Positions 24,167 to 32,989 of a stretch of DNA of 64,000 nt are shown here, piece by piece (positions within the stretch are counted from its first letter, which is position 1; each line of letters opens with the position of its first letter). Made by a program: the position numbers and the translations under genes. The notes under the pieces were generated by a model, which saw nothing but the letters and a program-made list of their open reading frames with translations, searched no databases and had not been told where the DNA came from. The stretch is from Halalkaliarchaeum desulfuricum (GTDB taxonomy: Archaea; Halobacteriota; Halobacteria; Halobacteriales; Haloferacaceae), in assembly GCF_002952775.1 (NCBI RefSeq), contig NZ_CP025066.1, positions 2,542,001 through 2,606,000 of the forward strand, read 5' to 3'.

Positions 24167-24952
24167 TTACCGAGTTTTCAGGTCGCTTTCGATGCGGTAA
24201 TTCATATCCTGGTAGCTGATGTTGATGTTCAACTTGCCGATCTTGTATCTGAGGATTTCTGCAATCTCCTCGACGCGGTCTTGGTCGAACCGAAGCGCCG
24301 GAACGGGAACGACGATTCCTCCATGGAACTGCCCCTGGTTGTCTACTATCGGGGCTGCGACTGTCCCTACGTCATCAACAATTGATACGTTCCCATGTGC
24401 GATTCCATCCTCACGGATCTGTTCGAGCTCGGCCAAAAACGAGGCACGGCCGACCCTGTTTTCCAGCGGAAACTCGAGTCCGTCGAGTATTTCGTCTCGA
24501 CGTTCTTCAGGGAGGAATGCGAGGAGCAGTTTTCCTTCAGGGGTCGTGTGGAGATCCGTACAAAAGCCCACGTGGATGTCGGTGCGGATTCCCTCTTTCC
24601 CTCGCCCGATACCCGCAAAGACCATCTTTCCGTCAGTTTCGACGACGTAGTTGACGCTTTCGTTCGTCTCCTCGGCGATTTCCTCTAAAAGCGGTTGCAC
24701 GTGATGATAGATGGTACGTTTTTGTCGTACGGTCGCACCGAGAGCGAAAAAACGGAGTCCGAGATGGTATTGATTGTCATCGTCCTTGACAACGTACCCT
24801 CGGCGTTCGAGCGTCGAAAGATGAGAGTGAATTGTGCTCTTTGCCATATTCAGGTCCTCGGCCAATGTCGATACCCCTGCCCCCTCGACGTATTGAATGT
24901 GTTCGATGATATCGAACATTCGATCGATCGCCTGTATTCCGTTTCGGGTCAT
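24167..24952 (-). CDS. IclR-family transcriptional regulator
   Basis: 261-residue IclR-type regulator: an N-terminal winged helix (about residues 5-65; VSTLAEDLNMAKSTIHSHLS is the recognition region) and a C-terminal IclR effector-binding domain (about 75-250; TTPEGKLLLAFLP and APIVDNQGQFHGGIVV). IclR proteins bind small carboxylic or aromatic metabolites and control catabolic operons. It lies at the end of the corrinoid module next to the DUF1638 gene on the same strand, so it is the likely substrate-responsive regulator of the module (inference). AT-rich DNA at 24959-24985 holds its promoter. Confidence 0.92.
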   Translation of the reverse strand: MTRNGIQAIDRMFDIIEHIQYVEGAGVSTLAEDLNMAKSTIHSHLSTLERRGYVVKDDDNQYHLGLRFFALGATVRQKRTIYHHVQPLLEEIAEETNESVNYVVETDGKMVFAGIGRGKEGIRTDIHVGFCTDLHTTPEGKLLLAFLPEERRDEILDGLEFPLENRVGRASFLAELEQIREDGIAHGNVSIVDDVGTVAAPIVDNQGQFHGGIVVPVPALRFDQDRVEEIAEILRYKIGKLNINISYQDMNYRIESDLKTR

Positions 24953-25201: not shown

Positions 25202-26032
25202 TCACTCCCCGGACGGTTCCGATAGTATGGGTGACGGACCGGGTTCGGAGACAGGTTCTCCAGGGTCGTACCGTTCGACCTCCCGAACGCTTTCAGGTTC
25301 GCCGAGGATCCGTTCGAGCCGAGAGAGATCGGCCTCGGAGACCGAAAGCGACGCGCTGGCTGCGGCCGAGTCGTCGCCGCCTACCCCGATTACAAACTGC
25401 CGGAAGGACTCGGCGTACTCCCGGTGGAAGGGATACAGGTTTCCGGTGTCCAGGAGGACGACGTGGTGATAGCAGCTGACCACGTCGCGGACGAGCGCTT
25501 CCGGCGGGGTTTGCATTCGTTCGCTCCGCGTTGCAGCCTCCTGGACTCGTTCACTGTGAGGCCAGTTTACCCACATGTCGGGATGGTTCTCCTGTGCCTC
25601 CTCGAACCGGCGAACCAGCCCGTCGTACTCTCCCGCGTAGGCGCTATACACTTTGAAACAGTCCAGCCCGACGTCGATCCAGCCCCGGGTGAGGTAGTAA
25701 GTACCGGCGGACTTCCGTTCCCCGTGGGGGCCCCTGGGTCGGTCGATGAGAAATAGTTCGATGCAATCTCCTCCCCAATAGACGAACAACGGAACCTCGG
25801 AACTGCTCACGCCAGCGACGCCCGCAGGGTCGTGATACAGGACGAGGATGTCGTCGACGCCCTCTTCCTCCAGTGTGTCGATACTCTCTTGAACCTGATC
25901 GTGTATCCGTTGAGATTCTGGTGCGTGGATCGGGAACTCGTGGTACCACTGCGGGACGAATTCGATCGACGCGTCGGGTGCCAGGCGGCCTAGTTCATCG
26001 TACAGCGTTTCACAGGCGACGATGCCGAGCAT
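25202..26032 (-). CDS. DUF1638 protein associated with corrinoid methyltransferases
   Basis: 276-residue DUF1638-like protein. The family core is visible: LVLYHDPAGVAG, then GDCIELFLIDR, then GTYYLTRGWID near the middle. DUF1638 genes are known as neighbours of corrinoid-dependent methyltransferase genes in methanogens and anaerobic bacteria, but their function is not established. Here it is downstream of the corrinoid protein on the same strand with 132 bases between. The acidic, proline-rich last 40 residues look like a halophilic extension. Confidence 0.85.
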   Translation of the reverse strand: MLGIVACETLYDELGRLAPDASIEFVPQWYHEFPIHAPESQRIHDQVQESIDTLEEEGVDDILVLYHDPAGVAGVSSSEVPLFVYWGGDCIELFLIDRPRGPHGERKSAGTYYLTRGWIDVGLDCFKVYSAYAGEYDGLVRRFEEAQENHPDMWVNWPHSERVQEAATRSERMQTPPEALVRDVVSCYHHVVLLDTGNLYPFHREYAESFRQFVIGVGGDDSAAASASLSVSEADLSRLERILGEPESVREVERYDPGEPVSEPGPSPILSEPSGE

Positions 26033-26164: not shown

Positions 26165-26827
26165 CTACGTTTCCGCTCCGAGCCACTCTTTCGCCAGGTT
26201 GACGCCGCCGGGTGCGTCGGTCTCGTATCCGTCGGCGCCCACGTGTTCGCAGACGTCGTCGGTGATCTGCCCGCCGCCGATCATCACTTTCGTTCCCTCC
26301 CGGAGTCCCTCCCCGTCGGACTCTTCGAGGAGACCCGTCTCCTCGAGAGCGTCGACGGTCTCTTTCATCGAGTCGAACGCCGCGGTCAGGAAGCCGCTCA
26401 GGGCGACGATATCCGGATCGTGTTCCTCGACGGCGTCGACGAAGTCCTGAACGGGTACGTCGATCCCGAGGTCGTGGACGATGAACCCGTTCAGATCGAA
26501 CATGAAATACACCAGATCCTTCCCGATGTCGTGGATGTCGTCTTTTACCGTTCCCAGTACGACGACCCCTGCAGCGTCGTCCTCGTCGGCGTCGGGCATC
26601 TCCGTCTGGAGGCTCTCGGAGATCTGCTCGATGATGTCACCGGCGTACATAAGGTCCGGAATAAAGTAGTCTTCGGCCTCGTACCGATCGCCGACGATCG
26701 CCATTCCCTTCTTGAGGTCGTCGAGGATGTCGAGGGGGTCCTCGCCGGCCTCCAGCCGCTCTTCGGCCATCTGTACTGCTTTTTCCTCCTCTAACTCGGC
26801 CAACGCCTGGACAAATTCATCTGACAT
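26165..26827 (-). CDS. Methyltransferase cognate corrinoid protein
   Basis: 220-residue corrinoid protein of the MtaC/MtbC/MtvC type: an N-terminal four-helix cap (about 1-80) and a Rossmann-like B12-binding domain. The cobalt-ligating signature D97-x-H99-x2-G102 lies in KDDIHDIGKD, with ALSGFLT near residue 144 and IGGG near 184 completing the nucleotide-loop pocket. It shuttles the methyl group between MT1 and MT2. It is transcribed divergently from the MT2 gene at 27056. No other corrinoid protein is seen in the window. Confidence 0.95.
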   Translation of the reverse strand: MSDEFVQALAELEEEKAVQMAEERLEAGEDPLDILDDLKKGMAIVGDRYEAEDYFIPDLMYAGDIIEQISESLQTEMPDADEDDAAGVVVLGTVKDDIHDIGKDLVYFMFDLNGFIVHDLGIDVPVQDFVDAVEEHDPDIVALSGFLTAAFDSMKETVDALEETGLLEESDGEGLREGTKVMIGGGQITDDVCEHVGADGYETDAPGGVNLAKEWLGAET

Positions 26828-27055: not shown

Positions 27056-27904
27056 ATGTCACTCCAGACGACAGTGGAAGGAGCCGGCGAATCGGTGACG
27101 CTCGATCGGACCCAGCAGGTGCATCTGATCGGAGAGCGAATCAATCCCCGTCCCGAGTCGGACCTCGCAGAAGCGCTGAGCGAGGGGAACCTGGAACCGG
27201 TGCGGGAACTGGCAGACGAACAGGTCGAGAACGGCGCGGACCTGATCGACGTGAACGTCGACGCCGACGGAGTGGACAAAGACGAAATGCTCCCGAAGGC
27301 AGTCGAGACCGTGGCGGACGCGGTCGACGTGCCGATCGTGATCGACACGAATTACGAGGACGCCGACGCGCTGGAGGAGGCGCTGGATCTGTGTCCGGGC
27401 AAGCCGATCGTCAACTCCGTGAACGGGGAACTGGAGTCCCTCGAGACGATCCTTCCACTGGTGGACGAATATGAAACCGCGGTGATCGGACTCACCATGG
27501 ACGACGATGGGATCCCGGACGACGCCGATACCCGATTCGAGATCGCTCAAGCGATTCTCGCGCGTGCTGACGAGCACGGTATTCCCAAAGAGGACGTGAT
27601 CATCGACTGCGCGGCGCTGCCGCTGTCGACGGATTCAGAGGCCGGTCGGACGACCCTCGACACGATGGAGATGGTCCGGGACGAACTGGGCAACAGCATC
27701 ACGCTCGGTCTCAGCAACGTCTCCTTCGAACTACCCAATCGAGAGGAGATCAACAGCGTGTACCTGGCGATGGCGATCCGGGCGGGCCTGAACGTGCCGA
27801 TCGTTCGCGCCGAGACGACCAAAGAAGTCGCACTGATCGCCGACCTCGCGATGGGCCGCGACGACTTCGCGAAACGGTACCTCGGGTACTACCGCGGACG
27901 GTAA
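27056..27904 (+). CDS. Methyl-THF:corrinoid methyltransferase (MT2; AcsE/MtvA/MtrH-like pterin-binding TIM barrel)
   Basis: 282 residues, essentially one pterin-binding (dihydropteroate-synthase-like) barrel. Signatures are IGERINPRP near residue 25, GADLIDVNVDADG near 60, GKPIVNSVNGE near 120 and GLSNVSFELPNR near 218, matching AcsE, MtvA and the folate module of MetH more closely than methanogen MtrH. It should move a methyl group between the corrinoid protein and tetrahydrofolate, the one-carbon carrier used with GlyA in haloarchaea. There is no homocysteine or other extra domain, so it is not a methionine synthase. It is divergent from the corrinoid-protein gene. Confidence 0.92.
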   Translation: MSLQTTVEGAGESVTLDRTQQVHLIGERINPRPESDLAEALSEGNLEPVRELADEQVENGADLIDVNVDADGVDKDEMLPKAVETVADAVDVPIVIDTNYEDADALEEALDLCPGKPIVNSVNGELESLETILPLVDEYETAVIGLTMDDDGIPDDADTRFEIAQAILARADEHGIPKEDVIIDCAALPLSTDSEAGRTTLDTMEMVRDELGNSITLGLSNVSFELPNREEINSVYLAMAIRAGLNVPIVRAETTKEVALIADLAMGRDDFAKRYLGYYRGR

Positions 27905-28103: not shown

Positions 28104-29306
28104 ATGACGAGTAAGGACTATCCCAAAAAGCGATGGACTGTACTTGGACTCGCGTGGGGTGCGTTTTTCGCCGTTGCAATGGCGTGGTACATCATGCCGA
28201 CACTCCAGCCGGATATCCTCGAACTGTACGGGATTACCGGCAGCCAGTTCCAGCTCGCGTTTACCCTCCCGTTCGGTGTCGCGGCAGTGCTTTGCATCCC
28301 GGGAGGAATGCTTGCCGATCGACTCGGGATACGGCGTGCGGCAACCCTCGGTATGGCGATTTCGGGCGTCGGCTTCCTCCTGCGATCTCGGACTGGAAGT
28401 TTCGAGATTCTCTTGGGATCGATGCTGCTTGTTGGAGTCGGTCTGGGACTGGTAATGCCGAACCTTCCGAAGCTCGTAAGCGTGTGGTTCCCGTCGGACG
28501 AGACAGGTCTCGCCACCGGGATTTACAATACCGGACTGATGGGTGGACTGTCGACGGGAATGGTCATCGCGCCGTTCCTCCCGGCGTGGCAATCAGGAAA
28601 CGTGCTACTCGGTGGAATCGTGCTCGCGTTCGCTGTCGTGTTCTTTGTTATCGTCCGAGACACACCACCTGGGAAAGAACTACCCTCCACTCCACTCGTC
28701 GAAGGGCTTCAGCGCGCGGTGAAGAGCAAGAACGCCTGGGTCGCGGGCTTTGCTGTGTTTGCCGGTCTCGCTGGGATGGTTGCGATACAGGGTGAACTCC
28801 CTGTTGCGCTCTTCGAGATCCACGGGATCGATACCGCTACCGGCGGTCAGATCGCTTCGATGATAACCTACGGTGGGATCCTCGGCTCGCTAACCATACC
28901 GGCGATCGCAACGAAACTCGACCGGCGTAAAGGAACTCTGGTTTCCGTGGCCGTCGGATTCGGAGTGATCATGTTCCCGGTGTGGCTGACGGGGAACACG
29001 ACGATTCTCTTCGTCGGCACAACCGTCGCCGGTTACCTGGCCGGCGGCGCCCTCCCCATTATCATGGAAGTCCCCACCTGGCTGCCGCGGGTCGAAAGCG
29101 ATCCGGTGGAGCCGCAACACGTCGGCGGCGCCTCCGGGTTAATGACTGCGATGATGAATCTTGGAGGATTTATCGGACTCCCGTTCATCATTGGGCCGAT
29201 CATCGGCTGGCAGGGATACACGATCGGCCTCCTCGCTGCGATGATCATCTTCTCCTTTCAGGGGATTCTCGGAATCTTGTTCACGCTTCCTGAACTCGGT
29301 GACTGA
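28104..29306 (+). CDS. MFS transporter of the corrinoid module
   Basis: 400-residue major-facilitator protein with about 12 membrane segments. The MFS motif GMLADRLGIRRA follows TM2, and PNLPKLVSVWFP lies before TM5. It is embedded between MT2 and MT1 on the same strand, so it probably imports the methylated substrate or exports the demethylated product (inference). A long leader (about 200 bases after MT2) with a TATA-like GGTATATATCTC near 27977-27988 and a purine-rich GAGGTGG 8-14 bases before the ATG suggests a leadered transcript, unlike most genes here. Confidence 0.88.
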   Translation: MTSKDYPKKRWTVLGLAWGAFFAVAMAWYIMPTLQPDILELYGITGSQFQLAFTLPFGVAAVLCIPGGMLADRLGIRRAATLGMAISGVGFLLRSRTGSFEILLGSMLLVGVGLGLVMPNLPKLVSVWFPSDETGLATGIYNTGLMGGLSTGMVIAPFLPAWQSGNVLLGGIVLAFAVVFFVIVRDTPPGKELPSTPLVEGLQRAVKSKNAWVAGFAVFAGLAGMVAIQGELPVALFEIHGIDTATGGQIASMITYGGILGSLTIPAIATKLDRRKGTLVSVAVGFGVIMFPVWLTGNTTILFVGTTVAGYLAGGALPIIMEVPTWLPRVESDPVEPQHVGGASGLMTAMMNLGGFIGLPFIIGPIIGWQGYTIGLLAAMIIFSFQGILGILFTLPELGD

Positions 29307-29420: not shown

Positions 29421-30716
29421 ATGACACACGACACGGACGTCACGCTGGAGAACTGGGAGACGGGAGTTGGAATCGACTTCGAGGACGAAGCGGCCCGCGA
29501 AGCGTATCAGGAGCGTGCAGGACGGTTCGCGACTGCGATTCGCGGCGGGGAGCCGGACCGCATTCCGACGGCGCTCAGTGCGACGTTCTATCCGGTCTTC
29601 CATGCCGGGATTACCCCGGAGAAAGCGATGAACGATGCTGCAGCGTTGGCCGCCGCCTTCGAGGAGACGGCCTACGACCTCGAGCCCGATGCCCATCAGT
29701 TGTCGGCCGCGCTGCTCCCTTCGGCGAAGATGCTGGAGATCCTCGATTACCAGCTGTACGCCTGGCCCGGTGACGGTGCCTCCCCGGACACCGGCTATCA
29801 GGCGCTCGAGGACGAATACATGGGCCCGGAAGACTACGAACATCTGATGCGGGATCCCACTGATTTTTGGCTGCGAAACTACATGCCCGAAATCGTCGGC
29901 GCGCTGGAACCGTTCCGGGAGTTGCCTCGCTTCACCGACCTGGTGGAGATCCCGAGCATCCACTACATGGCGATCCCGTTCGGGTTGCCCCACGTCCAGG
30001 AGGCGCTCGAAACGCTCATGGAGGCCGGGGAGGAGGCGCTCAGGTGGCAAGAGATCGTCGGCGGGACGACAGAAGAAATCATCCAGTCGGGGTATCCCAC
30101 CTCGTTCGGCGGCTTCACCAAGGCCCCATACGACACGCTCGGGGACACGTTGCGGGGCACCAAGGGTGTCGCCATGGACCTCAAGCGAAACCCCGACACC
30201 CTGCTGGAGGCGGTCGACCGGCTGACCCCGATCATGACCGAAATGGGGATCCGCTCCGCACAGGCCGCCGGCAACCCCATCGTGTTCATCCCGCTGCACA
30301 AGGGCGCGGACGGGTTCATGTCCGACGAGGAGTTCCGAACGTTCTACTGGCCGCAGCTCAGGGAAGTGATCGACGGTCTTACGGACGCCGGATTGGTCCC
30401 CTGGTTGTTCGCAGAGGGGAGCTACGACAACCGACTCGAGGCCGTCTCGGATCTCCCGGACGGCAACATGGTCTGGCAGTTCGATCGGACGGACATGCGG
30501 GACGCGAAAGCAGCCCTGGGTGATCAGGCGGCGATCGCCGGTAACGTCCACAGTTCCCTCCTCAACACGAAGGAGCCGGAAGACGTCGACGAATACTGTC
30601 GCGAACTCATCGAGGACGTCGGCCCCGATGGGTTCATCCTCGCGCCGGGTGTGGCGATGGACGAGGCGGAACCCGAAAACGTCCGGGCGATGATCGAGGC
30701 ACCCCGAAAGTACTAG
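29421..30716 (+). CDS. UroD-like methyltransferase 1 (MT1; MtvB/O-demethylase-like)
   Basis: 431-residue protein of the uroporphyrinogen-decarboxylase superfamily, which includes the corrinoid methyltransferases MtaA, MtbA and acetogen MtvB. Landmarks are the GEPDRIPT strand near residue 43, the FRTFYWPQLREVID segment near 306 and IAGNVHSSLL near 372. The H-x-C zinc motif of MtaA/MtbA is absent (LFAEGS at 329-334), and the whole protein has one cysteine (C393), outside any zinc motif. Acidic and His candidates are E340-x14-D355-x21-H377. It is therefore unlikely to be a thiol methyltransferase or heme enzyme; the module context makes it the substrate:corrinoid MT1. Substrate unknown (methoxylated aromatics, glycine betaine or methylamines are options). 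Confidence 0.85.
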   Translation: MTHDTDVTLENWETGVGIDFEDEAAREAYQERAGRFATAIRGGEPDRIPTALSATFYPVFHAGITPEKAMNDAAALAAAFEETAYDLEPDAHQLSAALLPSAKMLEILDYQLYAWPGDGASPDTGYQALEDEYMGPEDYEHLMRDPTDFWLRNYMPEIVGALEPFRELPRFTDLVEIPSIHYMAIPFGLPHVQEALETLMEAGEEALRWQEIVGGTTEEIIQSGYPTSFGGFTKAPYDTLGDTLRGTKGVAMDLKRNPDTLLEAVDRLTPIMTEMGIRSAQAAGNPIVFIPLHKGADGFMSDEEFRTFYWPQLREVIDGLTDAGLVPWLFAEGSYDNRLEAVSDLPDGNMVWQFDRTDMRDAKAALGDQAAIAGNVHSSLLNTKEPEDVDEYCRELIEDVGPDGFILAPGVAMDEAEPENVRAMIEAPRKY

Positions 30717-30794: not shown

Positions 30795-32711
30795 TCAAAG
30801 CGATCGGTCGACGCCGACTTCTTCCAGACGTGCTTTCACGTCCGGATACCGGTCGAGATCGCGGTGTGGAAGGTACATCGCTTCCATGAACTCGTCGTGG
30901 AATCCGTCCCAGGCGGCGAGTTCGACGTAGTCGACTTCCTCGACGATGCGTTCGGCTTCGGCCTTCGCCGCTTCCTCCAGCAGCGCGTAGATCGCCCCGT
31001 AGCCGGCGGCGTTTCCGAGGAACTCCACCTGATCGGCGCCGACCTGCGGGTACATCCCGAGCAGCTTGGCCGACTCGGGATCGAGATAGTTGCCGAACCC
31101 GCCGGCCATCACCAGCCTGTCCACGTCGTCGATGCCGGCCTCCGAAAGCAGGATGTTCGTCCCGGTCTGGATCGCCGCCTTGGCGTTTTGAATGTCCCGA
31201 ACGTCCTCCTGGGAGACCACGATAGCCGAGTCGCCGTTCGCCTCGGTGGCCTCGACGAGCACGAACTCCCGGTCGCCGTCATCGGTTTCCCGAACCCGAC
31301 CCCGGCCGTCCTCGGGAGTCACGAACCGACCGCGCCGGTCGATCGCACCCACGAGGAACAGTTGGGCGACGACGTCGACGATTCCGGAACCGCAGATCCC
31401 GACCGGCTCCGCGTCGTCGATAACCTCGAGTGTCGGTTCCCAGGTGTCGGGATCCAGCGTCACCGCCTCGATCGCGCCGGGTTTGGCACGCATCCCGTGG
31501 GAGATCTCTGCGCCTTCGAGTGCTGGGCCGGCGGGCGCCGACGCAGTCCACGCCGTTTCGCCGTCGTAGACCGCGATTTCGCCGTTCGTCCCGATGTCGA
31601 TACAGACGACCGTCTCCGTCCGATCGAGAATTCCCGCCGCGAGCAGGTCCGCCACGAAGTCCGGGCCCACCCAGCCGCCGATGATCGGCAGCCACGAGAG
31701 GTAGCCGGAGTCGTTGATCTCCACGTTCAGCTCTCTGGCTTTCACTGTTTCCGAGGCCTGCATCGCTGGAACGTACGGGCTGGCCGCGACCGCGCTCGCG
31801 TCGATCCCGAGAAAGAGGTGATGCATGGCGGTGTTCCCGACGAACACCGCTTCGAAAATTTCGTCGGGTTCGATGCCTGCCTCCGTCGTCACCTCGTCGA
31901 TGCTCTCGTTGATCGTATCGACGATCTCCGACTGGAGCTCTTCCCGGCCCCCTGGCTTCTGGCTGTGCTGGACGCGACTGATGATGTCGCCGCCGTGTCG
32001 CCGCTGCGGGTTGAGCGTTGAGCTAACGCTTTCGACGGTGCCGCTTCGAACGTCCAGGAGGTACACGGCGACCGTCGTGGTCCCGATGTCGACCGCAAGC
32101 CCGTACGCTGATTGAGCGGTTCCCGGAACGACCGAAAGTAGCTCCTCCGTTCCAAAAACCACGGCAGTACAACGAAGCGTTCCCTCGGTTTCTTCCGCTC
32201 GAATCCTCGAGGGAAGTTCCGTCGTCGCGAGACGATCGGCGGAGGTAACCTCAATCCCGTACTGTTCCTGAAGAGCATCGAAGAGACGTTTCCGATCCGC
32301 GGTGTTGTCCTCGAGCGTGGGCGCGGCCAGTTCGAGCCGGTAGAGGCGGACGGACGGGTCCAGATCGAAATCAACCTCGACGCCTTCCGTCATCACGATC
32401 TCGCCTTCGCTCCGTGAAGAAGCGGGAACGTGCACCGAAACGTCGCCTTCAACGACGGCTCGACAGCCCAGTCGATAGCCGTCATCGAGTTGTGCCTCGG
32501 TGAGAACGCTTTGTTCCTCGTCGGTCACCGACGAGAGGTTTTCTGCCCCCGATTCGATCTGCACTGCACAAGTCCCACACAGGCCGTTCCCCCCACAGAG
32601 TGCTTCGATCCGGGCGTCGGACCCGTCGGCCACCTCCAACACGGTTCGACCTGCCTCGGCCTCGACGTCGATGTCCCACGGACTGAAGGACACGACAGGC
32701 TCTTGTGCCAT
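30795..32711 (-). CDS. Reductive activator of corrinoid protein (RACo type)
   Basis: 638 residues from ATG 32711. An N-terminal plant-type 2Fe-2S domain has C39-x5-C45-x2-C48 and C83. A linker and then an ASKHA ATPase-like domain follow (AVDIGTTTVAVY near 210, VFVGNTAMHHL near 310, CIDIGTNGEIAV near 390). It reduces adventitiously oxidised Co(II) corrinoid back to Co(I) with ATP. The architecture matches bacterial RACo and O-demethylase activators; methanogen RamA instead ends in two 4Fe-4S clusters, and the C-terminus here has no cysteine motif. It converges with MT1 (78 bases between stops) and has its own TATA box. Confidence 0.93.
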   Translation of the reverse strand: MAQEPVVSFSPWDIDVEAEAGRTVLEVADGSDARIEALCGGNGLCGTCAVQIESGAENLSSVTDEEQSVLTEAQLDDGYRLGCRAVVEGDVSVHVPASSRSEGEIVMTEGVEVDFDLDPSVRLYRLELAAPTLEDNTADRKRLFDALQEQYGIEVTSADRLATTELPSRIRAEETEGTLRCTAVVFGTEELLSVVPGTAQSAYGLAVDIGTTTVAVYLLDVRSGTVESVSSTLNPQRRHGGDIISRVQHSQKPGGREELQSEIVDTINESIDEVTTEAGIEPDEIFEAVFVGNTAMHHLFLGIDASAVAASPYVPAMQASETVKARELNVEINDSGYLSWLPIIGGWVGPDFVADLLAAGILDRTETVVCIDIGTNGEIAVYDGETAWTASAPAGPALEGAEISHGMRAKPGAIEAVTLDPDTWEPTLEVIDDAEPVGICGSGIVDVVAQLFLVGAIDRRGRFVTPEDGRGRVRETDDGDREFVLVEATEANGDSAIVVSQEDVRDIQNAKAAIQTGTNILLSEAGIDDVDRLVMAGGFGNYLDPESAKLLGMYPQVGADQVEFLGNAAGYGAIYALLEEAAKAEAERIVEEVDYVELAAWDGFHDEFMEAMYLPHRDLDRYPDVKARLEEVGVDRSL

Positions 32712-32729
32712 AGCGTGAAATACGGGCAA

Positions 32730-32741
32730 CAATATATAGTA
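32730..32741 (-). promoter_or_regulatory. TATA-like promoter of the RACo gene
   Basis: ACTATATATTGT on the minus strand, 19-30 bases before ATG 32711; it favours that start over a longer upstream frame. Confidence 0.6.
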
Positions 32742-32989
32742 GTTGCGAGAGATGGGGTCTCCCCACTCTGAGAAAACGAACAATCCGTGTCGGAGAACAG
32801 AATTTTTATCTCACGAAACACACTCAATATACAGACAAAGTATTTATGAATAGTTATAATTTTAATATAAGATAATACTACTATTCCATTACTCTATCGT
32901 AGTACTACCGCTGGGATTGCAACAAAACTGATGCGTCCGTTGAAACGGACCGAACTCCGAACTGTGTACGGGTTTACTCCGGAAGCGCC

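Follow-up and report, generated by a model that had tools for sequence, protein, structure and literature searches.

Related corrinoid methyltransferase systems

The biochemical precedent for the protein described here comes from MtoB (PMC8630106) and CdmB (PMC13222342). In the archaeon Methermicoccus shengliensis, the O-demethylase MtoB/MtoC/MtoA/MtoD includes an MT1 of ~47 kDa whose gene is clustered with those of a corrinoid protein, an activase and an MFS transporter, and its methyl acceptor is tetrahydromethanopterin (PMC8630106). CdmB, the chloromethane methyltransferase of Acetobacterium dehalogenans, belongs to a system (CdmB/CdmC/CdmA) composed of an MT1, a corrinoid protein and a tetrahydrofolate (THF)-type MT2, in which CdmB contained no zinc and showed no zinc effect (PMC13222342). 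It was also recorded that the Moorella O-demethylase MtvB is devoid of zinc, and that some O-demethylases contain this metal, as reported for A. dehalogenans enzymes (PMC13222342). The acetogen O-demethylase MT1 proteins OdmB/VdmB and MtvB are likewise accompanied by a corrinoid protein, a THF-type MT2 and an activase. In the literature searched, no report of corrinoid O-demethylase-like methyl transfer in haloarchaea was found.

A probable MT1 gene and its cluster in a haloarchaeon

The window analysed here, that is, the whole stretch of 64,000 nucleotides from Halalkaliarchaeum desulfuricum, harbors a probable MT1 gene (MT1a) in the following setting:

24167..24952, minus strand: IclR-family regulator of the cluster (PF01614, PF09339)
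25202..26032, minus strand: DUF1638 protein, a conserved cluster member (PF07796)
26165..26827, minus strand: corrinoid protein, the methyl carrier (PF02310 and PF02607; cobalt-ligand motif D-D-I-H-D-I-G)
27056..27904, plus strand: MT2, a methyltetrahydrofolate-type methyltransferase resembling AcsE/MeTr (PF00809)
28104..29306, plus strand: MFS transporter (PF07690)
29421..30716, plus strand: MT1a, a UroD-superfamily substrate:corrinoid methyltransferase (PF01208; match to CdmB 9rui; orthologues)
30795..32783, minus strand: RACo-type corrinoid reductive activase with 2Fe-2S and ASKHA parts (PF14574, PF17651, PF17650, PF00111)

The MT1a frame is open throughout and encodes a product of 431 aa. 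The original prediction, made from the sequence, had taken it for an MT1 of the UroD fold, and this was supported both by the PF01208 match (E 2e-22, 80 bits vs 23.9) and by the corrinoid protein, MT2 and RACo genes found alongside. PF01208 was the sole domain detected in MT1a, the MttB superfamily domain PF06253 being absent from it; genes for MttB proteins lie in other parts of the genome. When compared by sequence with solved structures, MT1a matched CdmB (9rui) best (E 3.8e-32), and a profile built from haloarchaeal proteins also led to this structure (E 1.7e-45).

The genes are laid out so that the IclR, DUF1638 and corrinoid protein genes lie on the minus strand, those for MT2, the MFS transporter and MT1a on the plus strand, and RACo is convergent to MT1a. 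Some of the products fell under the cut-offs of specific models: the corrinoid protein reached 151 bits with TIGR02370 (cut-off 215), and its own sequence bears the D-x-H-x-x-G motif; MT2 scored 244 bits with NF005719, slightly under the cut-off of 259; and RACo scored 477 bits with the AcsV model (cut-off 800). The true start of RACo is probably an ATG located ~24 codons inside the called frame. An MT1, a corrinoid protein, a methyl-THF MT2 and an activase are encoded together, as in O-demethylase-type systems, and judged by its genes the cluster would supply every component needed to carry a substrate's methyl group to a corrinoid and from there to tetrahydrofolate.

Orthologues of MT1a with related gene neighbourhoods were found in four other genomes. 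The cluster is kept within the genus of the window's organism (89% identity) and in a second genus; the gene set is conserved in other genomes in a rearranged order, and the second species of the genus adds a Liv-type ABC transporter. Relatives of the MFS transporter near MT1 clusters, as well as the DUF1638 and IclR genes, were each present in three genomes (G001, G007 and G604). The transporter is a probable importer of the methylated substrate, and the DUF1638 protein may contribute to methyl transfer via corrinoids. By sequence resemblance to the DUF1638 gene of the window, a second such gene was also noticed in a C1 locus (L070:5767-6582) that is described below. MT1a shares this conserved cluster with the corrinoid protein, MT2, RACo, the MFS transporter, DUF1638 and IclR, and for this reason most likely acts as the substrate-specific MT1; its assignment to the corrinoid MT1 proteins as such is highly likely.

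Residues at the positions of the thiol-type zinc site

In two profile alignments with the thiol methyltransferases MtaA and MetE, the stretch FAEG of MT1a was placed opposite HMCG of the thiol enzymes, with F330 on the His and E332 on the Cys of the H-x-C motif. D355 occupied the position of the acidic zinc ligand, which in MetE is Glu642 (PMC539065), and V411 that of the second Cys. Therefore, of the four ligand positions of the thiol enzymes, two are carboxylate and two hydrophobic in MT1a. In this way, MT1a resembles MtaA (4ay7) and MetE in its fold and in the acidic residue at position 355, and differs from them in the replacement of the His, Cys and second Cys ligands by F330, E332 and V411. 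The original prediction had stated that the thiol-type zinc site was missing, that C393 was the single cysteine of the protein and that the H-x-C motif was lacking; all of this agrees with the alignments and with the sequence, in which neither H-x-C nor C-x-H occurs. The residues that it had numbered (E332, E340, D355 and H377) were also found in their places. The codons discussed below are:

30297..30299, plus strand: H293, candidate metal or acid residue, the first residue after predicted strand 284-292
30414..30416, plus strand: E332, aligned with the Cys of H-x-C in the thiol enzymes (profile alignments)
30438..30440, plus strand: E340, a candidate of the original prediction, in helix 335-342
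30483..30485, plus strand: D355, at the acidic ligand position of MtaA/MetE (profile alignments)
30549..30551, plus strand: H377, specific to MT1a, the first residue after predicted strand 371-376

Two structure models were obtained. The first, from an alignment of two rows, reached a pLDDT of 44 and a pTM of 0.35, too low for any use; the second, with 14 viral HemE rows, reached 58 and 0.59, so that only its fold and the secondary structure of its C-terminal half are usable, with a possible bias from the UroD rows. In the second model, the strands 284-292, 326-331, 351-354 and 371-376 are consecutive barrel strands that just precede H293, E332, D355 and H377, respectively. Its fold matches, read with the UroD homologues of its alignment in mind, included UROD (Z 19), MtaA (Z 17.9) and MetE with bound zinc (Z 14.0). 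CdmB was not among the listed fold matches although it is the best match by sequence, which is no argument against kinship. The earlier placement of the candidate residues in the right part of the barrel holds in this model of limited confidence for E332, D355 and H377, all just after predicted strands, but not for E340, which lies inside helix 335-342.

E340-x14-D355-x21-H377 had also been put forward as candidates for a zinc site resembling the E/E/H type of acetogen O-demethylases. The O-demethylase of A. dehalogenans reportedly has the zinc motif E-x14-E-x20-H (the zinc-site paper is said to be that of Studenik et al. 2011). The E-x14-[DE] spacing of MT1a resembles this motif, with x21 instead of x20 before the His, but the exact motif E-x14-E-x20-H is absent from the MT1a sequence, E-x14-[DE]-x21-H arose in 14% of the shuffles of MT1a, and a looser version in 91%. 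Human UROD and the HemE of this organism likewise have an acidic residue at position 340, which is E or D among the five MT1a orthologues (Asp in three); both of these UroD proteins also carry Asp at position 355. UroD is not a metalloenzyme (PMC539065). With E340 placed in a helix, at a position that often holds an acidic residue in metal-free UroD proteins, the pair E340-x14-D355 argues little for zinc; because UroD proteins can have acidic residues at the two positions, the zinc reading of this pair was dropped. E340 is probably a structural residue. Some weight is lent to the candidates by the conservation of D355 and H377 in the MT1a orthologues.

H293 and H377 appear to be the histidines nearest to the ligand positions E332 and D355. 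H293 is invariant in the haloarchaeal MT1a, MT1b and MT1c proteins (see below) and in archaeal proteins called MtoB-like by similarity, and is Trp in CdmB. Position 332 is Glu in MT1a and in the archaeal MtoB-like proteins, and Gln in CdmB. D355 is invariant in all five MT1a orthologues and is Gln in MT1b. H377 occurs in five of five MT1a proteins; at this position MT1b/MT1c have P or S, CdmB has S and most of the MtoB-like proteins have P. Owing to its absence from the paralogues, CdmB and most MtoB-like proteins, H377 may be tied to the substrate of MT1a more than to the general mechanism.

Because zinc is not general in the O-demethylase/Cdm branch, it would not necessarily be expected in MT1a, and the missing H-x-C is normal within this branch. 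MT1a very probably represents a genuine MT1, from a known family in which it is ordinary to lack the cysteine site, and the surprise lies in the host organisms rather than in the missing site. The three haloarchaeal paralogue groups, which differ at single sites (His/Pro/Ser at 377 and Asp/Gln at 355), are useful for testing the need for a metal.

Proposed mechanism and substrate

The corrinoid set probably removes methyl groups from a compound taken up by the cell and passes them on to folate, this being the reaction direction that we infer. A methylated compound, probably imported by the adjacent MFS transporter, would be positioned at the opening of the UroD-type barrel, where its methyl group would be accepted by the cob(I)alamin of the corrinoid protein. 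E332 and D355, in the Cys and Glu ligand positions and flanked by H293 and H377, could serve in the activation of the leaving group, either by acid catalysis or by a metal held there. MT2 would then move the methyl group from the corrinoid to tetrahydrofolate, RACo would re-reduce inactive cob(II)alamin, and methyl-THF would be oxidised via MTHFR, FolD, FTHFS and formate dehydrogenase, with the electrons passing to respiration. The likeliest substrate would be a methyl ether, for instance an organic or aromatic acid that bears methoxy groups. For the statement as a whole, namely that MT1a is the MT1 of a corrinoid-dependent methyl transfer acting on a methyl ether through a site of E332, D355, H293 and H377, we consider the chances evenly balanced.

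The comparison with the archaeal MtoB-like proteins carries the substrate class that we infer. MT1a shares with these proteins, three of whose loci also hold corrinoid protein and RACo genes, His 293 and Glu 332, a signature that comes from this analysis rather than from a published definition; it differs from them in its ~28% identity and in the Pro that most of them have instead of His 377. Like the Mto system, the haloarchaeal cluster is archaeal and combines an MT1 of ~47 kDa with a corrinoid protein, an activase and an MFS transporter, but its MT2 is of the methyl-THF type. Outside Halobacteria, the closest relative of MT1a (35% identity) is a protein of genome G474, encoded beside a Liv-type binding protein and ~15 kb from bzd-type benzoyl-CoA reductase genes, which hints at an aromatic substrate. 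This reductase family was searched for in the haloarchaeal genomes and was not found; therefore, these haloarchaea would demethylate such compounds without using the ring by this route. Neither the MFS nor the Liv-type transporters gave more than weak matches to any substrate. As a separate observation, a reductive dehalogenase-like protein (TIGR02486, 210 bits vs 160) is encoded in G474 (L050:13515-14795), directly before an MtaA-like gene.

CdmB being the closest solved structure by sequence, and the corrinoid protein, methyl-THF-type MT2 and activase being of the kind found in its system, MT1a might be a methyl halide dehalogenase with a metal-free scaffold. This is quite unlikely, however, as in the tree CdmB groups with the MtoB-like proteins (88/72), apart from the haloarchaeal ones, MT1a has His and Glu where CdmB has Trp and Gln (positions 293 and 332), and a conserved transporter suggests a solute rather than a gas. 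Since H293 and E332 match the MtoB-like proteins and CdmB has W/Q, these two positions would point to ether-type rather than halide-type chemistry. A thiol methyltransferase of the MtaA/MtbA kind or a uroporphyrinogen decarboxylase is barely credible: NCBIfam models for MtaA and HemE matched weakly, but at scores far under their cut-offs (46 vs 244 and 26 vs 303), an MtaA model gave 29.5 against a cut-off of 400, both the H-x-C and the second Cys of thiol (CoM) methyltransferases are absent from MT1a, and a separate HemE is encoded in the genome, as is a separate MT2 in the cluster. Sulfonium and thioether compounds are expected in hypersaline settings, and a substrate such as DMSP could be considered on that account; it is very unlikely, given that no specific genomic hint was found and that MT1a is devoid of the thiol-type zinc site.

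N-demethylation of a quaternary amine or an amino-acid betaine, which comes second after the ether in our order of substrates, is unlikely. In its favor, the MT1b of G000, with a corrinoid protein of its own (L015:7334-10758), lies beside a probable cis-3-hydroxy-L-proline dehydratase (NF043002, 519 vs a cut-off of 500), the start of a similar, possibly broken, dehydratase gene is found near MT1b in G604 (L049), the MT1b of G001 is near a PutP-like symporter, and MttB-type proteins are encoded in the same genomes, in G000 close to a BCCT transporter. These betaine hints, however, belong to MT1b and not to the MT1a of the window. Moreover, quaternary amines are not known to be substrates of any UroD-fold MT1, the known MT1 proteins for them being members of the MttB superfamily. 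The original prediction had favoured an ether or an amine over a thiol; its non-thiol part is supported by the adjoining genes for RACo, a corrinoid protein and an MT2 of the methyl-THF type distinct from MT1a. Of the two, the ether is the likelier, and the amine is kept as the lesser rival.

Distribution and paralogues

Three of the 292 sampled Halobacteria genomes gave a close MT1 match, so that the corrinoid MT1 set is rare in this group and, as far as the literature was searched, new to it. These three are the window's genome, which contains a second MT1 copy (60% identity), and two genomes of another genus, with three copies each. The second species of the window's genus also has three copies. 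An 80% match to MT1 in a Halodesulfurarchaeum MAG contig suggests that this other genus is Halodesulfurarchaeum. The haloarchaeal proteins form three paralogue groups in the tree, namely MT1a (the window's), MT1b and MT1c.

Scans of viral sequences with MT1, MtoB-like, Sporomusa and thiol-enzyme queries retrieved no relatives. HemE-like (uroporphyrinogen decarboxylase) proteins with ~30% identity to haloarchaeal HemE were observed in 28 IMG/VR viral contigs (L105-L132). A plasmid scan yielded one distant UroD-family protein, encoded on pSPTER of Sporomusa termitida (L055:7983-9080) near MFS transporters and FAD oxidoreductases, which presents H-x-D in place of the H-x-C of the thiol enzymes. 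In two genera, apparently related proteins of 225-231 aa that matched neither Pfam nor NCBIfam are encoded near methyltransferase and transporter genes (L011:15217-15894 and L134:6316-7011).

Folate-dependent C1 metabolism and nearby observations

FTHFS and MTHFR were found in all four genomes examined, in which the ACS catalytic family had no match. A previous study on Halodesulfurarchaeum described the oxidation of formate with reduction of sulfur, as well as C1 enzymes dependent on THF, and the word corrinoid is absent from that paper (PMC5437934). The MT1-bearing Halobacteria probably respire sulfur and have folate C1 enzymes. A link between sulfur respiration and the oxidation of methyl groups would be plausible in view of FTHFS and MTHFR without an ACS match and of the published formate and sulfur metabolism of Halodesulfurarchaeum. 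In a broader and doubtful picture, sulfur-respiring haloarchaea would live partly on methyl groups from several methylated compounds through MttB- and UroD-type corrinoid methyltransferases, with folate-based oxidation to CO2 without acetyl-CoA synthase and with an MT1 in which a His/carboxylate site (H293/E332/D355/H377) replaces the thiol zinc site. If true, haloarchaea would join the known hosts of corrinoid O-demethylase-like methyl transfer, which in them would be tied to folate-based C1 oxidation and sulfur respiration.

MttB was above its cut-off in 8 of the 292 Halobacteria, and an MttB-superfamily gene was found near FTHFS. In G000, this neighbourhood additionally holds genes for a corrinoid protein and a BCCT transporter and one resembling dimethylglycine dehydrogenase; this C1 locus (G000:C1:462000-481900, L070) includes FTHFS, FolD-like, formate dehydrogenase-like and MTHFR genes, an MttB-type methyltransferase and a second type of corrinoid protein, a content that suggests glycine betaine demethylation in a haloarchaeon. 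Pyrrolysine in a haloarchaeal MttB (G063) was considered and rejected, since TAG is a normal stop there. Finally, an MttB-family frame with one in-frame TGA was observed in G604 (G604:C2:693966-695369), which may point to a pseudogene or simply mark where the frame ends.
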